Shown: piece by piece, positions 1,936 to 5,439 of the stretch
How the letters are laid out: each line of letters begins with the position of its first letter
Position numbering within the stretch: position 1 is the first letter of the stretch
Made by a program: the position numbers and the translations under genes
Source of the DNA: Candidatus Latescibacterota bacterium
Lineage (GTDB): Bacteria; JAAXHH01; JACQVL01
Assembly: GCA_016209865.1 (NCBI GenBank)
Contig: JACQVL010000254.1
Span: 1-6,770, forward strand
Length of the DNA: 6,770 nt
Reading direction: 5' to 3'
The notes under the pieces: generated by a model
Databases searched by the model: none
What the model was told of the DNA's origin: nothing
What the model saw: only the letters and a program-made list of their open reading frames with translations

Positions 1936-2715
1936 GTGACCGCACGATCAGACGGCAGACAGTCAGACGAATTACGACTGGTCAAGATCACCCGGAGCTT
2001 CCTCCGGCACGCCGAAGGCTCCGCGCTGATCGAGATGGGCAGGACGGTGGTCATCTGCTCGGCGACCGTCGAGGAGTCCGTCCCGAAGTTTCTGAAAGCG
2101 ACCGGCAGGGGTTGGGTGACGGCGGAGTATGGCATGCTCCCCCGGAGCACGGCGGAACGGGTCGCCCGGGAGGGACGGCAAGGCCATCTGTCGGGACGCA
2201 CCCAGGAAATCCAGCGGCTGGTCGGCCGGTCGCTGCGGTCGGTCGTGGAACTGGACGCTCTGGGCGAACGGACGATCCTGATCGACTGTGACGTCCTGGA
2301 AGCGGACGGGGGGACGCGGACGGCGGCCATCACCGGGAGTTTTGTCGCCCTGTATGACGCGATCCAGGGGCTCCTTCAGGCCGGACGGGTCGACCACTCC
2401 CTCATCCGGGACTTCATCGCGGCCGTCAGTGTCGGAGTCATTCAAGGAGTTCCGACGCTCGACCTCTGCTACGAAGAAGATGCTGCGGCGGATGTCGACC
2501 TGAACTTAGTGATGACGGGCAGCGGGCATCTGGTCGAAATCCAGGGCACAGCGGAGCATCATCCGTTCTCGACGGCACAACTCCACCGGATGCTCGACCT
2601 CGGACGGCAGGGGATCGAGCAGCTCGTCGCCCTGCAGAAAGCGACGCTCGACCTTCCGCCCGACGCCGCGTTGCGAGGGTTCGGGGATGACGATCGTCCT
2701 GGCCACCCGGAATAA
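1936..2715 (+). CDS. rph: Ribonuclease PH
   Basis: RNase PH is a phosphate-dependent 3'-to-5' exoribonuclease that trims tRNA 3' ends and works as a ring of six subunits in the cytoplasm. The 259-aa product carries the family signature nearly throughout: R8-QSDELR-VKITR (8-20), [13 protein letters not shown] (59-71), [16 protein letters not shown] (86-101), [18 protein letters not shown] (117-134), [17 protein letters not shown] (179-195) and EIQGTAE (201-207). By family knowledge Arg88 and the Thr127-Arg128 pair bind phosphate, and Asp182 and Asp188 belong to the acidic metal-binding region. The start is GTG at 1936, with AAAGGGGA ending 5 nt upstream; it gives the standard N-terminus. Its last 29 nt overlap rdgB. 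The C-terminal tail beyond about residue 240 is Asp/Pro-rich and not conserved. Confidence 0.97.
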
Positions 2716-3628
2716 CGGGAAGATCGAGGAGATGCGCGCCGGGCTGGTCGATGCCGGATGGACCGTCCGGTCGTGCGCGGACTTCCCCGGTTGTCCGGTC
2801 GTCGAGGAAACCGGCGTGACGTTCGCGGAGAACGCCCTCCTCAAAGCCCGTGCTGTGGCGCGGTTCGCCCGGCACCCCGCCCTGGCGGACGATTCCGGTC
2901 TGGAGGTGGACGCCCTGGGCGGCGCGCCCGGTGTCCATTCTGCCCGGTTCAGCGGACCGGACGCGACCTCTGCGTCGAACAACGCCGCCCTGCTCGGACG
3001 GCTGTCGGGCGTGCCCGACGCCGCACGGACGGCCCGGTTCCGGTGCGTGATCGCCGTGGCCGCGCCAAACGGACGAGCCTGGATAGTCGAGGGGGTGTGC
3101 GAAGGCCGGGTCGGGACAACCCCCCGTGGTACGGCCGGGTTCGGGTACGACCCGCTCTTCATCCCGGACGGCTACACCCAGACGTTCGCGGAACTCGACA
3201 GGACGACCAAGAACCAGATCAGTCACCGAGGCCGGGCGATGCGAGCGGTGAGCGCGTTGTTGCGGACGTTGCGGCGGGATTTAATCAGGGGTCAGGGGTC
3301 AGTAAAGAGGAGGGAGTATATGGAAGAGAACCGGTACTACACCCTGGCTGACGGGACGGTCTTTGCGGTCGATCCTCCTCTCTCGTTAGAAATCTGGTCG
3401 GATCGCCTCCACATCATCTATTACGGGGAAAGCCTGGAGCGGTGGGATTACCAGACCGTGATCAAGAAACTCCGGGAGCGCCACGGATACCTGTTCAAGA
3501 TGCGGCTCTCGAACGACCTGACCCACGAGGTCAGGGCCCTCACCCCGGATGAATGTTCGCCGGAAATCCAGGCACACGCCGAGACACTCAATTGGCCGAG
3601 GACAACGTTCGAACGTTCGAACGTTTGA
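2687..3628 (+). CDS. rdgB: RdgB/HAM1 non-canonical purine NTP pyrophosphatase, open into a C-terminal extension
   Basis: RdgB hydrolyses dITP, ITP and XTP to monophosphates plus pyrophosphate, keeping deaminated purines out of DNA and RNA. Residues 1-197 match the normal length and motifs: ATRNNGK (6-12), [15 protein letters not shown] (40-54), [13 protein letters not shown] (65-77) with the likely general base Asp69, [10 protein letters not shown] (81-90), [10 protein letters not shown] (151-160) and the C-terminal SHRGRAMRA (179-187). The ATG overlaps rph by 29 nt, has GAGGG upstream, and suggests translational coupling. Oddity: there is no stop near residue 197. The frame runs through a heptamer repeat (3285-3302), a strong internal ribosome site and a second Met (residue 212) to TGA at 3626-3628, giving 313 aa. 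This may be a true fusion, or two genes whose separating stop has been shifted out of frame by repeat copy number. RdgB identity is sure; the fusion is not. Confidence 0.9.
3285..3302 (+). repeat. Heptanucleotide tandem repeat at the expected rdgB stop
   Basis: TCAGGGG is repeated 2.6 times (3285-3291, 3292-3298, then TCAG). It is read in frame by the extended rdgB frame. With one unit fewer the same frame would read CAG-TAA and stop. With one more, the frame would run to a TGA that lies at 3349-3351 in this window. The ribosome-binding site for the internal ATG at 3320 follows immediately. Confidence 0.8.
3320..3628 (+). CDS. Unrecognised 102-aa protein, in frame with rdgB
   Basis: I do not recognise this protein. 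It could be a separate gene or the C-terminal domain of the RdgB fusion. Favouring a separate gene: ATG at 3320 with AGGAGG (3308-3313) 6 nt upstream, the best Shine-Dalgarno in the window, and an RdgB domain that is complete at residue 197. The first half is strand-like with aromatics ([10 protein letters not shown] at 6-15, LHIIYYGES at 30-38). The middle is basic and helical ([10 protein letters not shown] at 47-56), and the rest is charged. There is no signal peptide, membrane segment or Cys cluster. The last residues, TTFERSNV, are encoded by the octamer repeat at 3604-3643, so the original C-terminus may have been replaced. It converges with the ThDP gene; the two stops are 5 nt apart. 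Confidence 0.55.
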   Translation: MEENRYYTLADGTVFAVDPPLSLEIWSDRLHIIYYGESLERWDYQTVIKKLRERHGYLFKMRLSNDLTHEVRALTPDECSPEIQAHAETLNWPRTTFERSNV

Positions 3629-3643
3629 ACGTTCTAACGTTTT
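3604..3643. repeat. Self-complementary octanucleotide tandem repeat between convergent genes
   Basis: Five 8-nt units run without a gap: AACGTTCG, AACGTTCG, AACGTTTG, AACGTTCT, AACGTTTT. The unit contains the palindromes AACGTT and, across the join, TTCGAA, so either strand can fold into hairpins. On the plus strand the array ends in five Ts (3640-3644), so it may serve as a terminator for the rdgB unit. It contains the TGA (3626-3628) of the plus-strand gene and the TAG (3636-3634 on the minus strand) of the ThDP gene. Confidence 0.85.
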
Positions 3644-5411: not shown

Positions 5412-5439
5412 TTACCGACCACCGACTACCGATCACCAC
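5412..5439 (-). repeat. Heptanucleotide tandem repeat, oxidoreductase-ThDP junction
   Basis: Read on the minus strand, the 70-nt gap begins with GTGGTGA, TCGGTAG, TCGGTGG and TCGGTAA: three close 7-nt units (5432-5412) and a degenerate fourth (5439-5433). It starts 1 nt after the oxidoreductase stop codon and ends well before the ribosome-binding site of the ThDP gene. Confidence 0.75.

Follow-up and report, generated by a model that had tools for sequence, protein, structure and literature searches.

The rdgB gene in the stretch of DNA analyzed here (6,770 nt in full, hereafter "the window") runs without a stop codon through a short heptamer array and into the following gene. The question raised by this locus is whether the array serves as a contingency switch that decides how RdgB ends, as a preliminary description of the sequence had claimed, or whether the fusion came about in another way, such as the one-time repeat insertion that the same description offered as its fallback.

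The rdgB gene and the array at its 3′ end

The rdgB frame is open on the forward strand from the ATG at 2687 to the TGA at 3626–3628, giving a 313-aa ORF (2687–3628) that extends, as the preliminary description had stated, from RdgB into a second protein. Residues 1–199 (2687–3283, + strand) form the RdgB/HAM1 domain (XTP/dITP diphosphatase), as judged from Pfam, NCBIfam, and AlphaFold2. The Pfam family Ham1p_like matched residues 3–188 (7.6e−65), and the NCBIfam models NF011397 and TIGR00042 both exceeded their cut-offs (for TIGR00042, RdgB/HAM1, 177.7 bits over the whole domain against a curated cut-off of 145.35); taken together, Pfam and NCBIfam placed the domain at residues 2–195, with its end near 188–195. 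The AlphaFold2 model was confident up to approximately residue 200, where the array starts, with the final helix of the core fold predicted at approximately residue 201, and its low confidence after approximately residue 203 is uninformative, as homologues are absent there. The likeness to XTP/dITP diphosphatases of the RdgB/HAM1 type thus covers the full domain, including the invariant residues of the alignment; the difference lies at the C-terminus, where a linker encoded by the array and then 102 further residues take the place of the usual stop at about residues 196–201.

The array, TCAGGGG-TCAGGGG-TCAGTAA (3285–3305, + strand), begins in codon 200 of the ORF and is a short, three-unit member of a family scattered over the genome. 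TRF reported 2.6 copies of TCAGGGG at 3285–3302 with a 100% match, including two full and perfect units, so the copy number and the position behind the RdgB domain given earlier both stand. The in-frame junction reads ATC AGG GGT CAG GGG TCA GTA AAG AGG AGG GAG TAT ATG, with the last ATG at 3320, and the closing TAA of the array (3303–3305) is out of frame with rdgB. By frame arithmetic, the loss of one unit would yield a 203-aa RdgB (ending ...IRGQ) with a CAG-TAA stop 14 nt upstream of the ATG at 3320; the gain of one unit would move RdgB into the third frame, with a product of 223 aa; and the gain of three units would restore the fusion frame. The array as it stands and the arrays with one unit fewer or one unit more would therefore give three different ends, and our recomputation reproduced the GGT-CAG-TAA stop and the other short tail that the preliminary description had derived for unit loss and unit gain, respectively.

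The second protein is a 102-aa ORF of no known family (3320–3628, + strand), in frame with rdgB and coding-like in composition. It is preceded by the Shine-Dalgarno sequence AGGAGG (3308–3313, + strand), read directly from the sequence and located 6 nt before the ATG, which agrees with the strong ribosome-binding site reported earlier. Its codon score was +27.5, whereas the remaining forward frames scored −37 and −49, and its GC3 was 0.77; because the score is positive in this forward frame only and GC3 is at this level, the ORF resembles a real gene. Since it keeps a strong Shine-Dalgarno sequence and an ATG, it is probably also started on its own, so that a free 102-aa protein is made as well. 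Homologues were found in none of the 38 relatives, the phylum, Pfam, NCBIfam, PHROGs, viral contigs, or plasmids, and the structure of the protein alone (mean pLDDT, 48) is not predictable without them.

In 13 genomes of the same order, RdgB is 195–198 aa long, ends at a normal stop, and is unfused; any gene that begins shortly after rdgB is a different one, and both the heptamer array and the 102-aa gene are absent from the same-order relatives. Likewise, none of 38 relatives, among them the 15 other genomes of the phylum that were searched, carries the 18-mer of the rdgB array. The relatives belong to other families and are 57–64% identical; at that distance, they suggest that rdgB would have ended at its own stop, with no array, before an insertion.

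The window holds further repeat arrays. A AACGTTCG octamer array with a terminator-like hairpin lies between convergent genes (3604–3641, no strand assigned) and contains both the TGA of the 102-aa ORF (3626–3628) and the TAG of a TPP enzyme gene (3634–3636, − strand); similar arrays occur at five further sites in the genome and at none in the relatives. A second heptamer array, GGTCGGT/GGTCAGT-like, is found a few nucleotides past the stop of a Gfo/Idh/MocA gene (5414–5437, − strand), and GGTCGGTGGTCGGT had 286 matches in the genome with up to one mismatch, compared with 2 for its control; an imperfect TTCATCG heptamer array (1891–1921) starts approximately 10 nt past the stop of a PTS EIIA gene. 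The three heptamer arrays and the octamer array of the window are all located at gene 3′ edges.

A scattered family and its placement at gene edges

The rdgB array is not a chance sequence, because the 14-mer TCAGGGGTCAGGGG had 48 matches in the 3.75-Mb source assembly (a single draft of 356 contigs, 83% complete), compared with 1 for the reversed control. A looser array pattern had 144 matches, against 1 for its control. Sixty-four arrays were mapped with their flanks. Their lengths were multiples of 7 (21, 28, 35, and 42 nt), some minus one edge base, and 37 of the 64 were 34–35 nt long, corresponding to four G-tracts. A typical full array reads ACAGGGG TCAGGNN TCAGGGG TCAGGGG TCAG(T/G)AA, that is, four G-tracts and a closing unit, and the family consensus is approximately ACAGGGG(TCAGGNN)(TCAGGGG)nTCAG(T/G)AA. 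With only two G-tracts, the RdgB copy counts among the shortest of the family. The G-tracts suggest that the arrays may shape DNA or RNA structure where genes end.

A literature search for TCAGGGG or GGGGTCA as a bacterial repeat returned nothing relevant. In an unrelated phylum, 16 of 198 genomes contained the identical unit, with up to 20 matches per genome; its flanks there are similar, with AGGGG preceding it and TCAGAAAA or TCAGGAA following it. The unit is thus patchy but widespread, whether through spread or through convergence. The arrays extracted from that phylum (L205–L224) often followed long open frames.

The arrays follow a placement rule, which we describe using gene calls from a purpose-written codon-usage caller, so that single cases may be off. 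Among the arrays located outside genes (n = 55), 43 have their start no more than 40 nt from the edge of the gene behind when the G-strand is read 5′ to 3′, whereas only 6 have their end at such a distance from the gene ahead; the nearer gene was the one behind in 38 cases and the one ahead in 8 (two-sided binomial, 9e−6). The gene behind (n = 43) was on the same strand in 27 cases and on the opposite strand in 16. The G-strand therefore points out of the gene, and the neighbors are dozens of unrelated genes, including cases in which the array is antisense and upstream of a start codon.

Seventeen pairs of arrays face each other, with their G-strands inward, around blocks of 101–228 bp, and no other close arrangement was seen among the mapped arrays. 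The DNA just after the arrays is shared between loci (1,219 blastn matches, self-overlap within pairs included), whereas the DNA just before them gave 3 matches between loci. The inward pairs and this common DNA indicate that the arrays are often the ends of composite intergenic blocks scattered over the genome. Target-site duplications were not obvious by eye at the 17 inverted pairs. The interiors of two pairs (L046, 1487–1644, and L198, 1344–1507) are approximately 93–98% identical, resembling a non-autonomous element with inverted ends, and the palindrome GGATTCCCGCTTTCGCGGGAATGAC occurs inside some of the bracketed blocks (the interiors of L046, L061, and L198).

These data bear on the proposal that slippage of 7-nt units switches RdgB between being free, short-tailed, or fused, and that selection favors this switching. 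The frame arithmetic at rdgB is exact, and array lengths throughout the genome differ by whole units, so that units have been gained or lost over long times. However, rdgB is a housekeeping gene with two full units, and the same arrays flank many unrelated genes, in some cases in antisense at the 5′ edge, where the reading frame is of no consequence. The phase-variable heptamer tracts upstream of the surface-adhesin genes hmw1A and hmw2A of Haemophilus influenzae have 13–38 units, and the survey of that species did not count 7-nt repeats of fewer than 3 units as simple sequence repeats (PMC2651432); the rdgB array, with 2.6 units, falls below that threshold. It resembles the hmw1A and hmw2A tracts in its 7-nt unit and in that a unit change would shift the frame or spacing, and differs from them in unit number and in the kind of gene. 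A dedicated contingency switch is thus highly improbable, and we do not retain this claim of the preliminary description, given the two full units and an array family found at gene edges of every kind.

Reading frames across the arrays and the origin of the fusion

Repeated TCAGGGG is free of stop codons in all three frames. Among the 34 arrays that lie behind a sense-strand gene, the stop fell just before the array in 12 and at its start in 1; it was counted at the closing codon in 8 (one of which, L178, is only a contig end) and slightly past the array in 7, and the frame read through further in the remaining 6. Because the array is stop-free in every frame, about two thirds of those behind sense genes would be translated. 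The twin of the rdgB junction, L180, is among the six that run on: one open frame leads from a histidine kinase gene through the array and an AAGGAG into a sigma-54 response regulator gene, at its ATG. Arrays also occur inside coding sequences; at L068, the array lies within a formate dehydrogenase alpha subunit and encodes approximately 12 residues that are absent from solved homologues, and at L039, it lies between a nucleotidyltransferase domain and a hexapeptide domain. The frame outcomes computed for rdgB are therefore a property of the repeat, which is stop-free in all frames and carries TAA or TGA in its closing unit, and not of rdgB.

Reading through is thus not confined to this locus, which argues against an error in assembly or base calling, with a true unit number that differs and an RdgB that ends normally at CAG-TAA. 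Repeats are error-prone, and the source is a draft of many contigs and incomplete. Nevertheless, an 18-nt array is much shorter than a typical short read and is easily spanned, and errors of 7 nt are unusual; we count both points, together with the other arrays of the family that read through, against such an error at rdgB and consider it very improbable.

A fusion favored by selection, in which the heptamer linker joins a nucleotide-pool hydrolase to a partner domain in a useful two-domain protein, is consistent with the open frame, with a composition that is coding-like throughout, and with L180, where a histidine kinase is likewise joined to its likely regulator. Against it, the 102-aa gene retains AGGAGG and an ATG, the fusion is absent from the relatives, and the partner has no homologue among the sequences searched; the low-confidence prediction of the residues after approximately 203 also weighs on this side but is uninformative without homologues. 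We regard such a fusion as unlikely, and that the fused frame might be under selection is nevertheless counted against our preferred explanation.

That explanation, which we consider likely, is that the rdgB array is a copy of a scattered G-rich heptamer element that landed on the 3′ end of the gene and fused it to its neighbor. A copy of the TCAGGGG element would have come onto the end of rdgB, displacing the old stop. Translation would then pass through the stop-free array until the closing TAA or TGA, which serves one frame, or until a later stop. The closing TAA lies outside the rdgB frame, which by a one-in-three chance coincides with that of the gene starting 15 nt later and so gives the 313-aa read-through ORF. 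In other words, rdgB would read through the array because the array has no stops, and into the next gene because the frame happens to match, while the next gene would retain its own Shine-Dalgarno sequence and ATG and could still start alone. We infer this order of events, the production of the fused protein, and that later unit changes would be rare rather than adaptive. The one-time repeat insertion proposed as a fallback in the preliminary description fits both the unfused, array-less relatives and the scattered family, and the RdgB fusion seems to be a side effect of a repeat family dispersed across the genome rather than a dedicated on/off switch.

More tentatively, TCAGGGG may be a spreading gene-edge element of unrelated phyla, whose inward pairs bracket intergenic DNA and whose lack of stops writes C-terminal tails, inserts, and fusions, that of RdgB included. 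As judged from the frames, a stop-free repeat at gene ends of this kind could fuse neighboring genes and would be a simple way for proteins to gain new tails and fusion partners. It also calls for caution in annotation, as array-fused ORFs need not represent real domain architectures.

Comparison with known gene-edge repeats

Heptamer arrays at gene edges were already known from a few lineages, with no role assigned to them. Those found here follow the same placement rule with another unit and with inward-facing pairs. The TAACTGA direct repeats of marine Beggiatoaceae, which lie mostly just upstream of start codons (PMC4679880), are similar in being short heptamer arrays (2–6 units) at gene edges, in having neighbors without a functional pattern, and in their patchy distribution across phyla. 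However, TAACTGA contains stop codons in its forward orientation, whereas TCAGGGG points outward from the gene and is stop-free in all frames.

The closest likeness is to the G-quadruplex-forming heptamer repeats GGGAATC of Xanthomonas and GGGGA(C/T)T of Nostoc PCC 7120 (Rehm et al. 2015, PMC4692102), which are located within 50 bp after a stop codon (sense) or upstream of a start codon (antisense) and were judged unlikely to drive phase variation. Both those repeats and TCAGGGG have a 7-nt unit that contains a G-tract and are dispersed through the genome in numbers above chance (here, 48 and 144 matches against 1 each for the controls), with few units and a preference for four G-tracts, shown here by the family as a whole (37 of 64 arrays). 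Both lie nearer to the gene behind, here with the G-strand outward and within 50 bp; some copies overlap stop codons, inverted pairs are known in both, and the neighbors are of mixed function. The TCAGGGG arrays differ in that 17 inward-facing pairs bracket 101–228 bp and in that arrays appear to be translated within coding genes and at two gene-gene joins. The RdgB copy itself differs in having two G-tracts only, and so cannot form a four-tract quadruplex on its own. Because the unit here is GGGGTCA, and not GGGNATC or GGGGAYT, the TCAGGGG arrays are another member of the kind described by Rehm et al. rather than the same family.
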